Assembly (NCBI RefSeq): GCF_014701195.1
Contig: NZ_AP018712.1
Span: 124,001-188,000, forward strand
Length of the DNA stretch: 64,000 bases
Origin: Tepiditoga spiralis
GTDB taxonomy: Bacteria > Thermotogota > Thermotogae > Petrotogales > Petrotogaceae
Direction of reading: 5' to 3'
Below are positions 750-14,864 of the stretch, in pieces. The notes below the pieces were generated by a model. The model was given only the letters and a program-made list of their open reading frames with translations, made no database searches and had not been told where the DNA came from. Numbering within the stretch: position 1 is the stretch's first letter; every line of letters starts with the position of its first letter. The position numbers and the translations under genes were made by a program.

Positions 750-1688
750 ATGAAAAAAGTAGATAGTTTAGAATTAGTAAAAAAATATACTGATGGAAAT
801 TTTTTTAAAGATGTAACTTTTATACAAAGTCAAATTTTGAAAAGTGTAAGGCATGTTTTAGATGAAAAAGGTTTTATTGAAATTTTACCTGTAATTATTT
901 CACCAATGACTGATCCACTAAACCATCCAGTTTTTAATGCTGATATTAATTATTATGGAAAAACATATTCTATAACTAAATCTATGATTCTTCATAAGCA
1001 AATAAGTACACTTGTTCATGAAAAAATTTATTCTGTTTCTCCAAATTTAAGACTCGAAACTGAAGAAAATTATGACAGTGGAAGACATCTTGTTGAATTT
1101 GTTCAAATCGATATGGAAAAACTTGGAGCAACTCGTGATGAAATAATGGATATTATGGAAGAAGCTATAAAGTATACTGTTAATACATTAAAAGATAGTT
1201 ACCCAGAAATAATTGAAAAATATCATCCATCACTTGATTTTTTGAATAAACCTTTTAAGAAAATAACTGTAAAAGAAGCTAAAAGTACTTATGGAGAAGA
1301 TTATGAAAAAATACTTTCAAAAAAATCAAAAGAACCATTTTGGCTCATTGACATGCCTTTACTTGAAAGAGAATTTTATGATAAACAAGATATGAAAAAT
1401 CCAGATGTTCTTCTTGATTTTGATTTAATCTTTCCTGAAGGTTTTGGAGAAGGTATTTCCGGTGGTGAAAGAGAACATGAATATGATCAAATAATAAAAA
1501 GAATGGATTTAAAGAGAACTTCATCAAAAATGTTTGAAGAATATTTAAGTTTAGCAAAAGAAGGTATATTAAAACCAACCGCTGGTTGTGGTATAGGTGT
1601 TGAAAGATTTACAAGATATATACTTGGTTTAGATCATGTTGAAAACGCAAGACTTTTTGCAAAAGCTCCAGGAAGATATTCTATTTAA
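750..1688 (+). CDS. Asparagine synthetase A-like enzyme, AspRS-paralogue type
   Basis: The 312-residue protein is a class II aminoacyl-tRNA synthetase catalytic core without the N-terminal anticodon-binding domain of AspRS/AsnRS. Motif 2 is visible around residues 101-123 (RLETEE, then RHLVEF and IDME), and motif 3 at 279-312 (GCGIGVERF, ILGLDHVENARLF). This architecture matches the archaeal AspRS-derived asparagine synthetase (AS-AR type), which makes Asn from Asp with ATP and ammonia via aspartyl-AMP. It is distinct from E. coli AsnA and from glutamine-dependent AsnB. The start is fixed by AGGGAGG seven bases upstream of ATG. The Asn-codon attenuator upstream and glnA downstream both support a role in asparagine and nitrogen metabolism. 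A tRNA-independent AsnRS-like paralogue of unknown function is the alternative. Confidence 0.82.
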   Translation: MKKVDSLELVKKYTDGNFFKDVTFIQSQILKSVRHVLDEKGFIEILPVIISPMTDPLNHPVFNADINYYGKTYSITKSMILHKQISTLVHEKIYSVSPNLRLETEENYDSGRHLVEFVQIDMEKLGATRDEIMDIMEEAIKYTVNTLKDSYPEIIEKYHPSLDFLNKPFKKITVKEAKSTYGEDYEKILSKKSKEPFWLIDMPLLEREFYDKQDMKNPDVLLDFDLIFPEGFGEGISGGEREHEYDQIIKRMDLKRTSSKMFEEYLSLAKEGILKPTAGCGIGVERFTRYILGLDHVENARLFAKAPGRYSI

Positions 1689-1775: not shown

Positions 1776-3098
1776 ATGACCAGAGAGGAAATTTTAAAAA
1801 AAATAGTCGAAGAAAAAATAAAATTTATAAGGCTTCAAATTACCGATATAAACGGTATGTTAAAAAATGTGGAGATTCCAGCAGATGAAATAGAAAGAGC
1901 CTTAGATGGGAAGGTTATGTTTGATGGTTCTTCCATTGAGGGAATGGCAAGAATAGATGAATCAGATATGTATCTCATTCCTGACCTTTCTACATTCACA
2001 ATTCTTCCATGGACATTGGAAAATGGAAAGGTTGGAAGATTTGTTTGTGATGTTTATAAACCAGATGGCAAACCTTATGAAGGTGATCCTAGGTCTGTTT
2101 TAAAAAGAATAGTAAAAAAATTAAGAGATGAAGAGTATATTGGATATGCTGGACCAGAACCAGAATTTTTTATTCTTCCAAGAGATGAAAAAGGAAATCC
2201 AAAACTCGAGTTGATGGATAAAGGTGGTTACTTTGATTTACTTCCAATAGGTCATGGAGAAGAAACTAGAAAAATGATTGTTGAAGCACTTGAAGAAATG
2301 GGATTAAATGTTGAAGCATCTCATCATGAAGTAGCTCCATCACAACATGAAATTGATTTTACATATGATAAAATTTTGGAAACAGCAGACAATATACAAA
2401 CATTTAAACTTGTTGTTAAAACAATTTCTTTACTTAGAGGTATGCATGCAACTTTTATGCCTAAACCTTTTTTTGGAATAAATGGTTCTGGAATGCATTG
2501 TAACATGAGTTTATTTAAAAATGACGAAAATATTTTTTATGATAAAAACAAGAAATACGAATTGAGTCAAGAGTTGCAGTACTTTATTGGAGGTATATTT
2601 GAACATATAAACTCTATAACCGCAATAGCAAATCCTACTATAAATTCTTATAAAAGATTAGTTCCAGGATATGAAGCTCCAATTAATGTTGCATGGGCTG
2701 CTTCTAACAGAACAGCTTTGATTAGAGTTCCTGCTTCACGAGGAAAGGGTACAAGGATTGAATTAAGGAGTCCTGATCCAACAGCCAATCCTTATCTTCT
2801 TTTTTCTGTTATTTTTGCTTCTGGTTTAAAAGGAGTTAAAGAAAAAATTCTTCCACCAGAACCTGTTGTTGAAAATATATATAAAATGAAAGAAGATAAA
2901 AAGATGGAACTTGGCATAAAAAAACTTCCAAGTTCATTAAAAGAATCTCTTGAATGCTTAAAAAATGATGAATTTATAAAAGATGTTTTAGGAGAACATA
3001 TTTTTAAAAAATTTATTGAAATAAAAGAAAAAGAATGTAGACTTTTTGATGCAGCAGTTACTGATTGGGAAACAAATAAATATCTTGGAATATTATAA
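1776..3098 (+). CDS. glnA: Glutamine synthetase type I
   Basis: This 440-residue enzyme makes glutamine from glutamate, ammonia and ATP in the cytoplasm. Visible family signatures are DGSSIEG near residue 50, GPEPEFF near 127, NGSGMHCN near 236, RVPASRG near 314 and [15 protein letters not shown] after it. The C-terminus [10 protein letters not shown]...YLGIL is of the GSI-alpha type. The length is shorter than adenylylated GSI-beta (about 469), and I see no adenylylation-site Tyr motif, so feedback control is more likely than covalent control. The RBS AAGGAGGG precedes ATG 1776. It follows the asparagine synthetase by 87 bp and may be read from the same transcript or from its own promoter in that gap. 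A strong hairpin terminator closes the unit. Confidence 0.95.
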
Positions 3099-3129
3099 AT
3101 AGAAATAGCTTAGCTATTTCTATTTTTTA
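3098..3129 (+). terminator. Intrinsic terminator after glnA
   Basis: A 12-bp stem (3098-3109 with 3113-3124, loop TTA) begins at the last base of the glnA stop codon and runs into a T-rich tail. Confidence 0.85.
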
Positions 3130-3209: not shown

Positions 3210-4676
3210 ATGAATATAAAAAGAGCAATAATTTCTGTTTATAACAAAAACGGCTTAGAAAAATTTGCAAGATTTTTATATGAAAATAATGTTGAAATAA
3301 TAAGTACAGGTGGAACAGCAAATTATTTAGAAGAAAAAGGTATAAAAGTTACTAAAATGTCTGATTATACAAAATTTCCAGAAATTTTAAATGGAAGAGT
3401 TAAATCTTTGCATCCAAAATTATTTGGTGGTGTTCTTGCTGTTGATGGTAATAAAAATCAAGAAAAAGAAATCATCGAATATGATATACCAAAAGTTGAT
3501 ATGGTTGTTGTTAATTTTTATCCTTTTGATGAAGTAGCAAGAAATACAACAAATGAAAAAGAACTTTTAGAAAATATAGATATTGGCGGATTTGCACTTT
3601 TAAGAGCTGCTGCAAAAAATTATAGAGATGTAATTCCAGTTGTTGATCCTGAAGATTACAACACTATAATAGACAGCATTGAAGAATGTGGAGATTTTCC
3701 ACTTCATAATAGAAGAAAGTTATCTCTTAAAGCTTTTTATTCTTGTTCAAAATATGATTCTAATATACACAAAGTTTTTTCAGAATTATTTGCCTCAGAA
3801 AAGTATGAACATGAATTTTTTGAAATTTTAGGAATGCTTAGATATGGTTCTAATCCATTGCAAGAAGGTACTTTATTAAAATTTGTTAATGGCGAAAGCT
3901 TGTTTGATAATGTTATTAATTTAACCACACATAAATCTCCAACCTTAAGAATTTTAAAAGATGTAAAATTATTATATAGTGTTGCTGTAAAGACTAAAGG
4001 TAATTTATTGGCTTTTTCTAAAAAAGGAGTTTTTGTTTTTGCTTATTTAAATCCATCAAATGAGGATATTAAAAAGTTTTATGGTATGTTAGATCAATTA
4101 AGAGGTGGAATTGTTTATACAGAAGATGTTGAAATGGTTAAAAAATTAAAAAATAGTAAATTAGATGGTATAATCACTTCTTCTGAACCAAATATTGATC
4201 ATTTTCTTGGTTATAAACCAATGATTTTTAAAATAAATAAAAAAGAAATAAATATGAATTATGAATACTTTGTAGATGGAGATTTAGTTGTAAAACAAGA
4301 GTATAAAAAAATTGAAGCTGATTTACCTGATGTTGAAACTATTGGATTTGAAGTGGCAAAGTTACACCGTTCTGATACAATAGTATATGTAAAAAATAAT
4401 AAAATTTATTCAGGAGTACAAAATGCTTTAAACAGGAAAGTAGCCTTAAAAGTTCTTGAAGAAATAGTTGAAGAAGCTGGCGATACTTTTGAAAAAGGAA
4501 CTTTGATATTTGACTCTCCAGTTAACAGTGATTTTGTAATAAAAAAAATTATTGAATGGAAGATAGAAAAAATTGTTGTTCCTCCAGCACTACCAAAGGA
4601 TGAAAAATATATTGAAACAATAAATAATCATGAAGTTAATGTAGTTGTAACTAGCAGAAGATACCATAGGTATTGA
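3210..4676 (+). CDS. purH: PurH homologue: intact IMP cyclohydrolase domain, degenerate AICAR transformylase domain
   Basis: PurH normally makes the last two steps of IMP synthesis. Residues 1-190 keep the MGS-like IMP cyclohydrolase signatures: STGGTA (32-37), LNGRVKSLHPK (60-70), VVVNFYPF (99-106) and ENIDIGG with LLRAAAKNYRDV (121-141). The C-terminal part (about 200-488) is recognisable from LRYGSNPLQ (210-218) and the final RRYHRY, but the hallmarks of transformylase are gone. The catalytic Lys-His of the KHxxPCG motif reads FSKKGVFVFA near 269-278. The KSNA segment reads HRSDT, and SDAFFPF reads FDSPVNS. I infer that the cyclohydrolase works and that formyl transfer may be lost or altered. 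Total length 488 is near the family norm, so this is divergence rather than truncation. Extended -10 TGGTATAAT lies at 3174-3182. The gene stands alone, not in a pur operon. Confidence 0.8.
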   Translation: MNIKRAIISVYNKNGLEKFARFLYENNVEIISTGGTANYLEEKGIKVTKMSDYTKFPEILNGRVKSLHPKLFGGVLAVDGNKNQEKEIIEYDIPKVDMVVVNFYPFDEVARNTTNEKELLENIDIGGFALLRAAAKNYRDVIPVVDPEDYNTIIDSIEECGDFPLHNRRKLSLKAFYSCSKYDSNIHKVFSELFASEKYEHEFFEILGMLRYGSNPLQEGTLLKFVNGESLFDNVINLTTHKSPTLRILKDVKLLYSVAVKTKGNLLAFSKKGVFVFAYLNPSNEDIKKFYGMLDQLRGGIVYTEDVEMVKKLKNSKLDGIITSSEPNIDHFLGYKPMIFKINKKEINMNYEYFVDGDLVVKQEYKKIEADLPDVETIGFEVAKLHRSDTIVYVKNNKIYSGVQNALNRKVALKVLEEIVEEAGDTFEKGTLIFDSPVNSDFVIKKIIEWKIEKIVVPPALPKDEKYIETINNHEVNVVVTSRRYHRY

Positions 4677-4700
4677 TTTTTTTGATAAATGTGATATAAT
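4673..4700 (+). promoter_or_regulatory. Promoter of the SRP RNA gene
   Basis: TTGATT (4673-4678) and TATAAT (4695-4700) with 16-bp spacing and a TGn extension of the -10. The -35 overlaps the stop codon of the purH homologue. The predicted start near 4707 is about 10 bases before the conserved stem. Confidence 0.75.
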
Positions 4701-4716
4701 GTTTTAGGATCAATTA

Positions 4717-4823
4717 CAAGTGGTTGGGTCCCGCGCAACGAATACCTACGAACCTGGTCAGGACCGGAAGGTAGCAGCCATAAGTGGTGTTTTTCGTGTG
4801 CCGCGGGTAGCTCAGCCACCTTG
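4717..4823 (+). ncRNA. ffs: Signal recognition particle RNA, bacterial small (4.5S) type
   Basis: The sequence contains the conserved SRP domain IV: ACCTGGTCAGGACCGGAAGG followed by TAGCAGCC, including the symmetric and asymmetric internal loops and the GGAA tetraloop region. The 5' end (CAAGTGGTTGGGTCCCGCGCA) and 3' end (TGTGCCGCGGGTAGC...CCACCTTG) pair as the long closing helix. It is about 107 nt, the usual bacterial small SRP RNA size. It binds Ffh and directs nascent membrane proteins to FtsY. Ends are approximate. Confidence 0.93.
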
Positions 4824-8562: not shown

Positions 8563-10242
8563 ATGGATGATGTAAAAATAAAATCTTATAAAACTTTTGA
8601 TCTTTGGCTAAATAATGTTGATGATTCTTTAAAAAATGAATTACTCACTATAAAATCTAATGAAAATGAATTAATAGATAGATTTTATAAAGATTTGGAA
8701 TTTGGAACAGGTGGAATGCGAGGAAAAATAGGTATAGGTAGTAACAGAATGAACTTTTATACTGTAGCAAGAGCTTCACAAGGTTTTGCAAATTACTTAA
8801 AAAAAATAAAAGATTTTCCTTCAATAGTAATAGCTTATGATACAAGGAATAAGTCTGATTATTTTGCAAAAAATGCAGCACAAGTATTTGCAGCAAATGG
8901 AATAAATGTATATTTATTTTCTGAACCAACAGCAACACCTATTTTATCTTACGCTGTAAGATATCTTAAAGCTGATGGTGGAATAGTTATTACTGCTAGC
9001 CACAATCCAGCAGAATATAATGGGTATAAAGTATATACTTCAAATGGTGTCCAAGCAGTACCAAATATCGCTGAAAAAATAATTGAAGAAGTGAATAAAC
9101 TAGACTATTTTAAAGATATAAACATTATAAAATATGAAGAAGGTATAAACAATGAAAAAATAATTGAATTAGATAATGAAGTATACAATAATTATATAGA
9201 TGAAGTTGAAGGTTATGTTCGTACATTAGTTCCAGAAATAAACAATAATTTAAAAATAGTGTATACCCCTTTGCATGGTACTGGATTCAAACCAGTTTCT
9301 GAAATTTTAAAAAAATTAGATTTTAATATTGAAATAGTTGAAGAACAAGCAAAAAGAGATATAAATTTTTCTACAGTAAAATCACCAAATCCTGAAGAAA
9401 AAGAAGCCTTTAAACTTGGACTAAGTCTCGCAAAAAAAAGTAATGCTGATATTGTTTTAGCAACAGATCCAGATTCAGATAGAATTGGAGTTTTCGAAAA
9501 ATATAATAATGATTATATTTCTTTTAATGGAAACGAAATGGGAATTATGCTTTCACATTTTATTCTTTCAAAATTAAAGTTACACAACTTATTACCTCAA
9601 AATGGAATAATAGTAAAAACTATTGTTTCTACAGATATGATTAAGCCAATTGCTCAACATTTTAATGTATCAGTTGATGAAACACTAACGGGATTCAAAT
9701 TTATAGGAGAAAAAATAGAAGAATATAAATTCAATAGAAAAAATAAATTTATTTTTGGATTCGAAGAAAGTTATGGATACTTAGCAAATGAACATGCAAG
9801 AGATAAAGATGCTGTAATTGCTTCAGCTTTAATTTCTGTTATGGCTTCAGAATTAAAAAAAGAAGAAAAAACTTTGAAGATGTACTTAAATGAATTGTAT
9901 GAAAAATATGGATATTATAAAGAAAAATTAATGACTTTTACCTTTGAAGGATATTCTGGAGCTCAAAAAATAAGAAATATTATGGAAAAAATAAAAAATG
10001 AACCTCCAATAAAAATAAGTTCTTTTAGACTTTTAGAAACTATTGATTATAACAAAGGACACAATAATCTTCCAAAATCCAATGTAATAGAATTAAGATA
10101 TGGAAGTATAAAGTTAATAGCAAGGCCTTCAGGAACAGAGCCAAAGATAAAGTTTTATATACTAGTTAATTCTGATTCTGAAGAAAAAGCTCTTAATTTA
10201 ATTTCCGATGTAGAATTAATTATTTTTAACTTAATAAATTAA
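8563..10242 (+). CDS. Phosphoglucomutase/phosphomannomutase (alpha-D-phosphohexomutase)
   Basis: The protein moves phosphate between C1 and C6 of glucose or mannose and links glycolysis to glycogen and cell-envelope sugar synthesis. All four family signatures are present: the phosphoserine loop TASHNPAEYNGYK near residues 139-151, the metal loop DPDSDRIG near 303-310, the sugar loop GFEESYGY near 400 and the phosphate site RPSGTEPK near 523. I choose ATG 8563 (559 residues) because GAGGTGA (8551-8557) is the Shine-Dalgarno site; an in-frame GTG at 8554 lies inside that site. Length and the FEESYG loop fit the PgcA/PGM-2-like group. The gene has its own promoter and a terminator shared with oppF. 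Confidence 0.9.
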   Translation: MDDVKIKSYKTFDLWLNNVDDSLKNELLTIKSNENELIDRFYKDLEFGTGGMRGKIGIGSNRMNFYTVARASQGFANYLKKIKDFPSIVIAYDTRNKSDYFAKNAAQVFAANGINVYLFSEPTATPILSYAVRYLKADGGIVITASHNPAEYNGYKVYTSNGVQAVPNIAEKIIEEVNKLDYFKDINIIKYEEGINNEKIIELDNEVYNNYIDEVEGYVRTLVPEINNNLKIVYTPLHGTGFKPVSEILKKLDFNIEIVEEQAKRDINFSTVKSPNPEEKEAFKLGLSLAKKSNADIVLATDPDSDRIGVFEKYNNDYISFNGNEMGIMLSHFILSKLKLHNLLPQNGIIVKTIVSTDMIKPIAQHFNVSVDETLTGFKFIGEKIEEYKFNRKNKFIFGFEESYGYLANEHARDKDAVIASALISVMASELKKEEKTLKMYLNELYEKYGYYKEKLMTFTFEGYSGAQKIRNIMEKIKNEPPIKISSFRLLETIDYNKGHNNLPKSNVIELRYGSIKLIARPSGTEPKIKFYILVNSDSEEKALNLISDVELIIFNLIN

Positions 10243-10271
10243 AAAGAAGTGTTCTTAGAACACTTCTTTTT
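10241..10271. terminator. Bidirectional terminator between the phosphohexomutase gene and oppF
   Basis: A 14-bp stem (10241-10254 with 10258-10271, loop TTA) has A and T runs on both flanks and sits between the convergent genes. Confidence 0.88.
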
Positions 10272-10275
10272 TCAA

Positions 10276-11460
10276 TTATTTTAGTTTTACTTTAAATTCT
10301 CCTGGAAAATGACAAGAAACAAAATGATCTGGACTAATTTCTTTTAATGGTGGTTCTTTTTTAGAACAAATATCTTTTGCTATTGGACATCTTGTATGAA
10401 ATCTACATCCTGAAGGAGGATTTAATGGACTTGGAACATCTCCTTGTAAAATAACTCTTTCTTTCTTGTATTCTGGATCTGGCATAGGAATAGCTGACAT
10501 CAAAGATACTGTGTATGGATGTAATGGATTATCAAACAGTTCTTCTTTTGAAGTCAATTCAGCTATTTTACCAAGATACATTACAGCAATTCTATCACTT
10601 ATATGCTTAACAACAGCAAGATCATGTGCAATAAAAACATATGTAAGATTAAATTCTTTTTGTAAATCATACATTAAATTTAAAATTTGTGATTGTACAG
10701 AAACGTCTAAAGCAGATACCGCTTCATCAGCAACTATTAACTTTGGTTTTAAAGCAAGTGCTCTTGCAATTCCTACTCTTTGCCTTTGACCACCTGAAAA
10801 TTGATGAGGATATCTATATAAATATTCTCTTGATAAACCAACTTTTTCCAATAAATCTCCAACTATTTCAGTTGCTTCTTTTGAATCAGCAATTCCATGA
10901 GTAATCATACCTTCGGCAATTATATTTTTAATTCTCATACGAGGATTCAATGATGAATAAGGATCTTGAAAAATTATTTGAGCATTTTTTCTAAAGAAAA
11001 GTCTTTTTTCATGTATATTAGATAACATTTCTTCATGTAAACCATGATATCCATCTTTAAAATATATTTTTGCATATTTTTTATCAACATCTTTTTCAAG
11101 TGTTTCTATTACTTTTTTTTCATTTCCTAATTTGTTTTTTAATTCATCAAATCTTTCAACATAAGTTTTCTTTATATATTTTTTTGATTCAAAAGAATTC
11201 ATAAACCATGGTGTTGTATCATGCCCTTCTATCAAAATTCTTCCTGAAGTTGGATTTAAAAGTCTTAAAATTGACATACCACTCGTACTTTTTCCACATC
11301 CAGATTCTCCAACTAATCCTAATGTTTCACCTTCATATACCTTAAAAGATATATCATCAACCGCTTTTACTTGTGCAACTACTCTTTTAAAAACTCCTGC
11401 TTTTACGGGGAAGTATTTTTTTAAATTTTCAACTTCAAGTAAAATCTTTTTTTCAGCCAT
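10276..11460 (-). CDS. oppF: Oligopeptide ABC transporter ATP-binding subunit, OppF type
   Basis: The 394-residue ATPase has Walker A GESGCGKST near residue 51, signature SGGQRQRVG near 222, Walker B LIVADEAVSALD near 239 and the C-terminal peptide-transporter domain with GCRFHTRCPIA. It powers peptide or oligosaccharide uptake together with OppD. It carries an insertion of about 60 charged residues (roughly 85-150) between the first beta sheet and the Q-loop segment AQIIFQDPYSSLNPR; ordinary OppF has only a short linker there. The insert looks helical and could be a coiled-coil arm. Last gene of the minus-strand opp operon; its start abuts the OppD stop (one-base overlap). Confidence 0.92.
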   Translation of the reverse strand: MAEKKILLEVENLKKYFPVKAGVFKRVVAQVKAVDDISFKVYEGETLGLVGESGCGKSTSGMSILRLLNPTSGRILIEGHDTTPWFMNSFESKKYIKKTYVERFDELKNKLGNEKKVIETLEKDVDKKYAKIYFKDGYHGLHEEMLSNIHEKRLFFRKNAQIIFQDPYSSLNPRMRIKNIIAEGMITHGIADSKEATEIVGDLLEKVGLSREYLYRYPHQFSGGQRQRVGIARALALKPKLIVADEAVSALDVSVQSQILNLMYDLQKEFNLTYVFIAHDLAVVKHISDRIAVMYLGKIAELTSKEELFDNPLHPYTVSLMSAIPMPDPEYKKERVILQGDVPSPLNPPSGCRFHTRCPIAKDICSKKEPPLKEISPDHFVSCHFPGEFKVKLK

Positions 11461-12479
11461 TATTTATTCTCCCCCTTTACCTTTTGAATTTCTTTAACCA
11501 ATTTATCAACATGCCAACATCTAACTATATGACCATTTTCAATTTCTTCTAATTCAGGTTGTTGTTTTTTACATTTTTCATCTGCTAAAAAACATCTATT
11601 TGAAAATTTACATCCCTTTGGAAAGTTTAAAGGAGTTGGAACATTTCCTGGAATTGCCCAAAGTCTTTCAACATCTTCTTCTATCTTTGGGATTGAATTC
11701 ATTAATCCCCATGTATATGGATGCTTTGTTTTTTTAAAAACAGTTATTATATCACTACTTTCAACAACTTCACCACCATACATAACAACTGCTCTATCAG
11801 ATATTTCAGCAACAACACCAAGATCATGTGTTATAAAAATAATAGCCATACCATATTCTTTTTGCAAATCTTTCATTAATTCAAGAATTTGTGCTTGTAT
11901 AGTAACATCAAGTGCTGTTGTAGGTTCATCTGCTATTAAAACTTCAGGATTACAAGAAAGTGCCATAGCAATCATAGCTCTTTGTCTCATACCTCCAGAA
12001 AGTTCATGTGGATATTGATCAACTCTCTCTTCTGGTTCAGGTATTCCAACTTTTCTTAAAAGTTCAATAGCTCTATTTTTAGCTTCATTCCCTTTTAAAT
12101 TCATATGAAGTTCCATCATTTCCATCATTTGTTCTCCTATTGTAAAAACAGGATTTAATGCTGTCATTGGTTCTTGGAAAATCATAGAAATTTCATTACC
12201 TCTAACGTGTCTCATTTCTTTATCAGAAAATTTTGTTATATCTTTTCCTTTATATATAATTTCTCCTTCTGGAATAAATCCATTTTCATCCAAAAGTCTC
12301 ATTATACTCAATGATGTAACTGATTTACCTGATCCAGATTCACCAACAATAGATAATGTTTCACCTGGATATAAATCAAAAGATAATCCATTTACAGCTT
12401 TTACAATTCCGTCTTCAGTTTTAAAATATGTTTTTAAATTTCTAACCTTTAAGATTGGTTCATCTTTTTTTGTCGACAT
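11460..12479 (-). CDS. oppD: Oligopeptide ABC transporter ATP-binding subunit, OppD type
   Basis: This 339-residue ATPase has Walker A GESGSGKSVTS, Q-loop MIFQEPMTALNP, signature LSGGMRQRAMIA and Walker B VLIADEPTTALD, plus the C-terminal domain GCKFSNRCFLADEKC. The last carries the Cys pattern seen in many OppD/DppD proteins. It pairs with OppF as a nucleotide-binding heterodimer on the cytoplasmic face. Length is normal for the family. RBS GGAGGTT precedes the ATG, 11 bases after the OppC stop. Confidence 0.93.
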   Translation of the reverse strand: MSTKKDEPILKVRNLKTYFKTEDGIVKAVNGLSFDLYPGETLSIVGESGSGKSVTSLSIMRLLDENGFIPEGEIIYKGKDITKFSDKEMRHVRGNEISMIFQEPMTALNPVFTIGEQMMEMMELHMNLKGNEAKNRAIELLRKVGIPEPEERVDQYPHELSGGMRQRAMIAMALSCNPEVLIADEPTTALDVTIQAQILELMKDLQKEYGMAIIFITHDLGVVAEISDRAVVMYGGEVVESSDIITVFKKTKHPYTWGLMNSIPKIEEDVERLWAIPGNVPTPLNFPKGCKFSNRCFLADEKCKKQQPELEEIENGHIVRCWHVDKLVKEIQKVKGENK

Positions 12480-12490
12480 AACAAACCTCC

Positions 12491-13819
12491 TTACATTCTG
12501 AGTTTTGGATCAAAGATGTCTCTCAATGCATCACCAACAAGATTCCATGCAAGAACAAAAAGAACCATTGCTATACCTGGATAGGTTATTGTATACCAAT
12601 ATTGTAATGCATTACTTCCACCACCAAGCATCCAATCTCTTGCATAAGTTAAAACAGAACCCCAGTCAGCATAACCTTGAGGAGCACCAACACCAAGAAA
12701 ACTCAAACCAGCAGCTGTTATAACCATTGAACCAATTCTCATAGAAGCCTGTACAACTACAGGGAAAATTGTATTTGGTAATATATGTTTAACTATTATT
12801 TTTGCATCAGATACTCCAAGTGCTTTTGCAGCAAGTACATATTGTTCATTTTTTGTTTGTAAAATATTACCTCTTATAAGCCTTGCAGTTCCCATCCAAC
12901 CAAACACAACGAGTGCAATCATAACTTTATCCAATCCTGTTCCAAGAATTGTAGTTAATACCATTGCAGCAAGTAAAAATGGAATAGACATAAAAATATC
13001 TGTAATTCTCATTAATACTTCATCTATCCAGCCACCAAAATAAGCAGAAATAGATCCTATAAATAAACCTATTATTGTTCCAGAAATAACAACAATTAAT
13101 CCAATTTTAAATCCTGTTCTAACTCCCCAAATAACTCCATAATATATATCTTTACCATTACTAACTCCAAAAGGGTGATCTTTTGAAGGTGGTTCAGGTT
13201 TTGATGAAAGTGTTACATTAGGCATTAAATATGGATCAAAATTTATGGATTTTACATAACTTTTATAAAGCTCATTGTATATCTTATGAGCATCACTTTC
13301 AAAATTTTTTGAATTACTTAATTGTTCTATTCTTGATTTTTCCTTTGAAGCTTCTTTTTTCTTTGTTTCATAAGTCTTTACCAATGAATTTAATTCATTA
13401 ATAACTTTTTTATCTCCACTGTTTAATTGATCAACATAACTTTGATCAATTATATATTCATCTGCAAGACTTAATAAAAATTCAGAAAAATCTTTCTTTG
13501 ATAATTTATTGCTTTTATATTTAATTAATTTATCTTTTAAATCCATTATAGTATCATAATCAGTTAAATAAAAATCATATGATAATTCATAATAAGATTG
13601 AAAAGAATCCAATATATCTTGTTTTTTATCTTCTGTATAATTTGCTAAATAATTTGAAATATCTTCTAAATCTGAATCATTAGGTATTGAAACAGGTGCA
13701 AGAACAGGTGCCAATATTCCTATTATTATAAAACCAATTAATAAAAATAAACCAAACATGGCAGATGGATTTTTATAAAATTTTCTCAGCATTCTTTTTA
13801 TTTCTTCATTATTCATCAA
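12491..13819 (-). CDS. oppC: Oligopeptide ABC transporter permease, OppC type, with large extracytoplasmic insertion
   Basis: OppC-type permeases are usually near 290-310 residues; this one has 442. After a first membrane helix (about 18-42) comes an added segment of about 140 mostly charged, helix-prone residues before the conserved HPFGVSNGKDIYYGVIWGVRTGFKIG. The remaining five membrane helices follow, with the EAA-loop AKALGVSDAKIIVKHILPN near residue 330. The insertion would lie outside the membrane, on the side of the binding protein. The reading frame is continuous, so it is not an assembly of two genes. Its role is unknown; contact with the large binding protein is one possibility. Confidence 0.9.
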   Translation of the reverse strand: MMNNEEIKRMLRKFYKNPSAMFGLFLLIGFIIIGILAPVLAPVSIPNDSDLEDISNYLANYTEDKKQDILDSFQSYYELSYDFYLTDYDTIMDLKDKLIKYKSNKLSKKDFSEFLLSLADEYIIDQSYVDQLNSGDKKVINELNSLVKTYETKKKEASKEKSRIEQLSNSKNFESDAHKIYNELYKSYVKSINFDPYLMPNVTLSSKPEPPSKDHPFGVSNGKDIYYGVIWGVRTGFKIGLIVVISGTIIGLFIGSISAYFGGWIDEVLMRITDIFMSIPFLLAAMVLTTILGTGLDKVMIALVVFGWMGTARLIRGNILQTKNEQYVLAAKALGVSDAKIIVKHILPNTIFPVVVQASMRIGSMVITAAGLSFLGVGAPQGYADWGSVLTYARDWMLGGGSNALQYWYTITYPGIAMVLFVLAWNLVGDALRDIFDPKLRM

Positions 13820-13826
13820 TTCTCAC

Positions 13827-14864
13827 CTACCCTAATCTAATTCTTGGATCTACAATTGCATAGACTATATCAATAACAAGATTACCAAAAACGAGTATTC
13901 CAGAAGAGAACAATAGACTACCCATTATTGAACCATAATCTAATTGTTGTGCAGCTTGTGCTGCAAATCTACCTATTCCTGGTCTGTTAAAAACAGTTTC
14001 AACTATAACAGCACCACCAAGAAGACCTATAACCATTTGACCAGCAACTGTAGTAACAGGAATTAAAGCATTTTTCTTTGCATGTTTGTTAATAACAACA
14101 TTTTCAGAAAGTCCTTTTGCTCTTGCTGTTCTTATATAATCTTTCCTTAAAACTTCAAGCATAGAAGCTCTTGTAATTCTAAGAAGATAAGCCCACCATA
14201 AATAAGCCATTGTTAATATAGGTCCTATGAGATGTCTCAATGCATCCCAAAAAATGTCAAGTCTCCCATTCAATAATCCATCTATAGTTAATAATTTCGT
14301 ATATCTATGAAATTCAGGAGAAGCTACTACTGCTTCTGCATTAACTCCAAGTTTTCCAGGTGGGAACCATCCCAATCCTACATAAAAAATCATTAATATT
14401 AATAAACCAAAGACAAAATCAGGCAGCGACCAACCAATCAATGCAAAAATTCTTATTGAATGATCAGCAAATTTATTATGATGAACTGCCGCTTTTATTC
14501 CGAGCCAAATACCACCTGCAATTATAGGAAGTATTGCATAAAGTGCTAGTTCTACTGTATATGGAAATCTTTCTAAAATGGCTTTTGAAACTTTATCTTT
14601 ACCAACAATTGACCATCCTAAATCTCCATGTAAAATTCCATTTAACCATACTCCATATCTAATATACCATGGATCATTTAATCCATACTTCTCTTTTACA
14701 GCTTCCATTTCAGCTGGAGACATTTTATCAATTGCATTTGCATCCACATAAGCTGAAAGAAGTTGATCTGAACCAAGAAGTTGCATAATAGAAAAAACAA
14801 TTAAAGTTACCCCAAGCATTATTAGTGGTAACAAAAGCAACCTCCTAATGATATATGACGTCAA
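13827..14864 (-). CDS. oppB: Oligopeptide ABC transporter permease, OppB type
   Basis: The 345-residue membrane protein starts with the typical IIRRLLLLPLIMLGVTLIVF helix. It carries the EAA-type coupling loop ARAKGLSENVVINKHAKKNALIPV, followed by VETVFNRPGIG and a C-terminal VDPRIRLG. It forms the translocation channel with OppC. The start is supported by GGAGGTG upstream of the ATG. It is separated from the binding-protein gene by 88 bp that contain a hairpin, which may lower permease expression relative to the binding protein. Confidence 0.93.
   Translation of the reverse strand: MTSYIIRRLLLLPLIMLGVTLIVFSIMQLLGSDQLLSAYVDANAIDKMSPAEMEAVKEKYGLNDPWYIRYGVWLNGILHGDLGWSIVGKDKVSKAILERFPYTVELALYAILPIIAGGIWLGIKAAVHHNKFADHSIRIFALIGWSLPDFVFGLLILMIFYVGLGWFPPGKLGVNAEAVVASPEFHRYTKLLTIDGLLNGRLDIFWDALRHLIGPILTMAYLWWAYLLRITRASMLEVLRKDYIRTARAKGLSENVVINKHAKKNALIPVTTVAGQMVIGLLGGAVIVETVFNRPGIGRFAAQAAQQLDYGSIMGSLLFSSGILVFGNLVIDIVYAIVDPRIRLG

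Follow-up and report, generated by a model that had tools for sequence, protein, structure and literature searches.

A PurH-derived protein family in Thermotogota with sequence constraint centred on the linker rather than on the catalytic halves

Introduction

The purine enzyme PurH (ATIC; NCBIfam models TIGR00355 and NF002049) combines an IMP cyclohydrolase half with an AICAR transformylase half, and the catalytic list of the cyclohydrolase comprises Lys66, Tyr104, Asp125 and Lys137 (PMC3261824). In archaea, the halves are separated or dispensable and occur as the standalone proteins PurH1 and PurH2 (PMC3261824). Two further relatives bear on the present case: ForH of formycin synthesis (PDB 6nko), a short protein derived from the PurH cyclohydrolase domain, and the PurH of Methanosarcina acetivorans, which acts with aEF2 in 50S dimers and is a published case of a 50S dimerisation factor (PMC12605026; PDB 9ou7).

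Here we describe P0001, a protein encoded in a 64,000-nucleotide stretch of the Tepiditoga spiralis genome (the window), and the PurH-derived family that includes it. We call this family B; nothing earlier named it, and we found no earlier description in the literature, with open-licence papers covered. P0001 shares with PurH its ancestry and its fold over both halves, and has all four cyclohydrolase residues, but it falls far under the curated cut-off, has lost His267 and Asn431 and belongs to a family with inverted constraint and a signature absent from canonical PurH. The comparison with the archaeal standalone proteins is similarly mixed: the Fervidobacteriaceae members of B would likewise serve as the cyclohydrolase part where PurH is split, whereas P0001 coexists with a canonical PurH and retains a transformylase half, remodelled but of full length (AICARFT aligns with residues 208-488), which a standalone PurH2 lacks. 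B resembles ForH in its derivation from the cyclohydrolase domain, but differs in carrying a signature of its own and, in the case of P0001, an additional half. The Methanosarcina protein shows that a PurH protein can take a non-metabolic role; that protein, however, is a canonical PurH, while B is linked to such a role only by the adjacency of an SRP RNA gene.

Results

The open reading frame of P0001 is intact from ATG to stop. The order along the window is asnA-like gene, glnA, terminator-like hairpin, B, promoter-like site and SRP RNA, with the following features (window coordinates):

750..1688, + strand: asparagine-synthetase-like gene with a class II tRNA-synthetase fold, asnA-like by inference
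1776..3098, + strand: glnA, glutamine synthetase, upstream neighbour of B; adjoins B in Kosmotogaceae too (divergent)
3097..3125, + strand: terminator-like hairpin after glnA, consensus match only
3210..4676, + strand: PurH-derived paralogue P0001 (B family), 488 aa
3210..3614, + strand: MGS/IMP-cyclohydrolase core, residues 1-135; Pfam MGS at 16-128; Lys65, Tyr104 and Asp124 kept
3615..3830, + strand: B signature region, residues 136-207; KNYRD..DPxDY...CGDxxLxxRRKxxLKAF...HKxFSELFASEK; gap-free and best conserved in B
3831..4673, + strand: AICAR-transformylase half in remodelled form, residues 208-488; Lys for His267 and Asp for Asn431
4673..4700, + strand: promoter-like site (extended -10) before the SRP RNA, consensus match only
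4722..4820, + strand: small SRP RNA (RF00169), immediately 3' of B and co-oriented with it; the pair is adjacent in 20 genomes from two families

Lys136 falls outside the core part and opens the signature part. The terminator-like hairpin that follows glnA suggests separate transcription of B. An asnA-like gene immediately precedes B in the genomes of genera g2, g3 and g7 of the same family. CRISPR-Cas genes (Cas1-, Cas2- and effector-like, judged by eye) lie immediately 5' of the asnA-glnA-B block (L004:131-6212). The original prediction had noted the absence of other purine genes nearby, and we found none close to B; purC (C1:1498882-1499544) and a canonical purH are about 1.37-1.39 Mb off.

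This canonical purH (C1:1520305-1521795), directly upstream of purD and about 1.39 Mb from P0001, encodes a protein of 498 aa that keeps every catalytic residue and scores 617.1 bits on TIGR00355 and 710.6 bits on NF002049. On the first model, whose cut-off is 528 bits, P0001 scores 253.6, and on the second, with a cut-off of 402, it scores 275; it is not the PurH of its genome. The organism had been predicted to need a separate AICAR formylase such as PurP. It has no such need, since the canonical PurH already supplies the step, and a search of 61 genomes (the window genome and 60 relatives) returned no PurP (PF06849), with archaeal controls positive, which rules it out as a missing formylase. 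Around the canonical purH-purD pair lie transposase-like genes and two nearly identical genes for ATPase-like proteins of 572 aa (L003:820-3937 and 10019-13940). In one genome of genus g6, the canonical purH is fragmented by internal stops, through either assembly error or recent decay (L050, G020:C7:267500-271000).

The cyclohydrolase half of P0001 is well kept, as had been proposed: Lys65, Tyr104, Asp124 and Lys136 are all present and correspond to human ATIC Lys66, Tyr104, Asp125 and Lys137. The companion claim that every transformylase motif is replaced holds for two residues of the site but fails for others in alignments. In ATIC, AICARFT His267, Asn431 and Asp546 have catalytic roles. 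Among Lys266-His267, Asn431 and Asp546, P0001 keeps the Lys and the Asp: the Lys-His motif reads FSKKG, with Lys retained and His replaced by Lys; KSNA has become RSD/KSD, with Asn replaced by Asp; SDAFFPF has become FDSPVNS, with its Asp retained; and the Arg-Tyr of LRYG stays. The loss of His267 and Asn431 indicates that this half is no longer functional as a transformylase. Pfam PF01808 (AICARFT_IMPCHas) covers P0001 by only the first 93 of its 311 model positions, and a single-sequence phmmer search of the PDB with the C half alone gave no PurH match, so that profile comparison was needed; hhalign against canonical AICARFT halves aligns 272 columns (probability 96, E 4e-9). This alignment, together with a dN/dS of about 0.05-0.26 for the half, shows it to be remodelled rather than decayed.

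Thirteen genomes of the same family encode full-length orthologues of P0001 (53-63% identity), and all of them also have a canonical PurH; genus g6 is without the orthologue. Such recurrence shows that P0001 is not a chance feature. The intact frame in these 13 genomes, together with the dN/dS values given below, rules out a pseudogene. Across the phylum, a 72-column model of the signature region found B in 88 of 103 Thermotogota genomes (manual count). Most copies score far above canonical PurH on this model; the ranges overlap in Thermotogaceae, where B scores at least 47 bits and the best canonical PurH up to 54 bits, and there the two were separated by frame length and sequence. A scan of 84,980 species with a peptide pattern from the signature, which would miss divergent members, returned 16 loci, 15 of them from named Thermotogota and one labelled only 'bacterium'. 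For the families and genomes named below, f1 is the family of the window, f2 stands for Kosmotogaceae/Mesotoga (L100-L104), f10 for Fervidobacteriaceae, g24 for Fervidobacterium (L099) and G057 for Athalassotoga saccharophila (L109).

Most of the invariant positions in an alignment of 23 members are non-catalytic and fall where the cyclohydrolase domain ends (C160, G161, D162, L165, R168, R169, L173, K174, S191, A195 and E197). Five of them, G161, D162, L165, R168 and R169, are present in 49 of 49 B members, P0001 included, and form the motif (C)GDxxLxxRR. The Cys is the exception, being Ala, Thr or Ser in Thermotogaceae, which rules it out as an invariant catalytic residue. Canonical PurHs rarely have D162 (4/19), L165 (5/19) or R169 (4/19). 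They also often carry R168 (16/19) and K174 (17/19), and part of the signature may therefore be structural.

The Thermotogaceae members include a 360-aa protein of genome G093 with no Pfam or NCBIfam match, encoded immediately 5' of a ComF-like phosphoribosyltransferase gene. A profile of this protein and its relatives aligns with the B family over 306 columns (probability 99.7, E 2e-26). G093 is presumably T. maritima MSB8, in which case the gene and its neighbour would be TM1583/TM1584. The Thermotoga frames of 351-364 aa had been considered as Apt fusions, which proved wrong: their C-terminal portion aligns with the transformylase half in its remodelled form.

In a phylogeny of 207 columns, the B members form one clade with support 93/87, present in 92% of bootstrap trees and below the starred threshold of the tool. 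Two choices behind this tree favour a single B clade: the long-branch canonical PurH of G049, which a first tree had placed within B and which we treated as an artefact, was left out, and we reassigned the G091 sequence to a split PurH, as its cyclohydrolase half, since that genome also encodes a separate AICARFT. The nearest sequences outside the clade are the canonical PurHs of G041, G042 and G046. The tree and the signature together support an origin of B from native Thermotogota PurH. The canonical PurHs of family f1 fall apart from the native Thermotogota PurH and may be a later acquisition or replacement.

Mean pairwise identity in core, linker and C half is 27, 46 and 19% for B and 51, 36 and 47% for canonical PurH. 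Constraint is thus inverted in B, from the catalytic halves to the linker; the evidence is the ordering within each row and not the absolute identity, because overall diversity is higher in the B set than among the canonical sequences. In close pairs, dN/dS of B is about 0.01-0.13 overall. It is lowest in the linker signature, at about 0.01-0.05, against about 0.03-0.11 for the core and 0.08-0.13 for the C half. Values are similar in Mesotoga-type genomes without the purine pathway.

The presence of B does not depend on purine synthesis. In 20 genomes at least 90% complete, from five families, B is present but purC was not found, nor was any AICARFT, canonical or standalone (G021-G025, G027-G029, G039, G052, G055, G057, G084-G087, G090 and G100-G102); drafts can miss genes, and several of the 20 are single-contig or near-complete. 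B and the pathway show no association (Fisher p 0.47 for the 2x2 table, which is descriptive as the genomes are related). Recycling of AICAR from histidine synthesis as the shared role is ruled out: hisF had no full match in any Kosmotogaceae examined or in the window genome. As hisF is lacking too, the purC-less Kosmotogaceae are left with no known AICAR source.

The cyclohydrolase site itself is altered in parts of the family. Tyr104 is replaced by Pro in g2, g3 and g7, all from family f1, where purC is present and B is under strong selection, and by Arg in f3 and f8 genomes with a full PurH; several B lineages have deleted the whole RVKTLHP segment. Genus g32 of the Fervidobacteriaceae, without purC and AICARFT, has Ser for Tyr104 in 4/4 cases and keeps the signature. 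In other Fervidobacteriaceae the pur operon reads purF-purN-AICARFT-purD with the cyclohydrolase half gone, B is the sole cyclohydrolase found, and it retains the Lys-Tyr-Asp-Lys set in 12/12 split genomes examined. The standalone AICARFT stands in the pur operon and the B-type cyclohydrolase is distant (L072:3763-4686, L073:4156-5049, L095:5767-6381 and relatives). G088, another Fervidobacteriaceae genome, combines a full-length B with a canonical PurH that is still complete. Since Tyr104 is kept where B is the sole cyclohydrolase and is lost with the pathway, the ancestral B was probably an active cyclohydrolase with a second role.

The original prediction had read the locus as selected for the cyclohydrolase with loss or change of formyl transfer. 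For P0001, the second part stands on sequence grounds because the transformylase site is broken and the cyclohydrolase site intact; selection for the cyclohydrolase does not extend to the whole family. The Tyr104 losses, the RVKTLHP deletions and the 20 pathway-less genomes make the alternative offered at the time, that the gene has a different role, the better reading, and IMP synthesis is very probably not the conserved role of the family.

An AF2 model of P0001 built from 13 sequences has a pLDDT of 79 and a pTM of 0.54, with uncertain domain placement. By Foldseek, the model matches PurH over both halves (E 1e-22 to 1e-30). ForH covers its N half with a TM-score of about 0.85.

Gene neighbourhoods of B vary over the phylum. 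In five f1 genomes and in 15/15 Kosmotogaceae with B, the next gene 3' of B is a co-oriented SRP RNA gene; this adjacency is absent in g2, g3 and g7 and in other families. Elsewhere, with gene names assigned partly by eye, B stands between upp and apt in f8 (one genome), between a uracil permease gene and comF in f3, between an SAH hydrolase gene and pheST in f4, and before comF in Thermotogaceae; in most f5 genomes it follows cheW and lexA. Nucleotide salvage and amide nitrogen genes recur near B, but no single partner does; as the neighbourhoods differ between families, they name no partner.

Discussion

We propose that B is not a biosynthetic enzyme but an adaptor or pseudoenzyme that responds to nucleotides, a tentative reading to which we give a probability of about 0.4. 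The shared selected function would be a second role in which the helical linker (GDxxLxxRR...K...S..FA) is central, as its conservation suggests. The old PurH fold, probably still dimeric, is predicted to bind a ligand, either a purine nucleotide or a phosphoribosyl compound, in what used to be the active-site pocket, and the linker helix would pass the bound state to a partner. In the genus of P0001, the cyclohydrolase half may still make IMP, as all four catalytic residues stay. This full residue set also speaks against a pure pseudoenzyme, which would not need it.

In one competing explanation, P0001 is simply a second IMP cyclohydrolase that adds flux in its genus, with the C half as a mere dimer scaffold. 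The four residues are intact also in G003, G004, G007 and G011, and the orthologous domain is the sole cyclohydrolase in Fervidobacteriaceae, beside the standalone AICARFT of the pur operon. The activity is, however, already supplied by the canonical PurH, g2, g3 and g7 carry Pro for Tyr104 despite purC and strong selection on B, and B is retained in pathway-less genomes; we therefore consider this explanation unlikely. Somewhat less likely still is a new enzyme that performs another reaction on a purine-like or phosphoribosyl substrate, with GDxxLxxRR within a new site. The strictness of the motif and its charged residues would suit such an enzyme, ForH is a PurH-derived precedent that matches the N half in both sequence and fold, and the gene neighbours nucleobase salvage genes in f3 and f8 (upp, apt and uracil permease). 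Against it, the operon partner is not uniform across the phylum, several lineages deleted the former active-site segment, and Thermotogaceae lost the Cys of CGD.

In 20 genomes from two families, an SRP RNA gene immediately follows B in the same orientation, which raises the idea of a non-catalytic PurH relative acting on the translation apparatus, by analogy to the PurH of 50S dimers. In the fullest version, a purine enzyme would have become, early in Thermotogota, a dedicated non-catalytic factor coupling the purine-nucleotide state to translation or secretion through the ribosome or SRP, and most of the phylum would have kept it even after losing purine synthesis. Both the idea and this version seem improbable to us: the adjacency is absent in g2, g3 and g7 and in families f3-f11, and the archaeal complex consists of an ordinary PurH with aEF2. 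Lower yet we place a prozyme, a dead paralogue that pairs with the canonical PurH and activates it. PurH is dimeric (PMC12605026) and B keeps the fold, but the 20 near-complete genomes in which B persists, with no canonical PurH or AICARFT found, rule this out as a family-wide function, and it could hold only locally. An adaptor or pseudoenzyme remains our preferred reading of B.

B is a conserved pseudoenzyme-like family that is likely annotated as PurH, and it ties an uncharacterised T. maritima protein without Pfam or NCBIfam match to PurH. A PurH-like match in Thermotogota is accordingly insufficient for calling purine prototrophy. The lineages in which Tyr104 is kept or lost while the linker motif stays are natural experiments; the old function is therefore separable from the new, and the residues to mutate are indicated.

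Two minor observations concern the genes around these proteins. An apparently independent split of PurH is seen in G091, with the AICARFT in L152 and the cyclohydrolase half in L123. The SRP RNA gene (window 4722-4820; L057, L062, L096 and L159) best matches the small form in the window's family and the large form in Kosmotogaceae and G093; the Alu domain of the SRP RNA was likely lost in one family.
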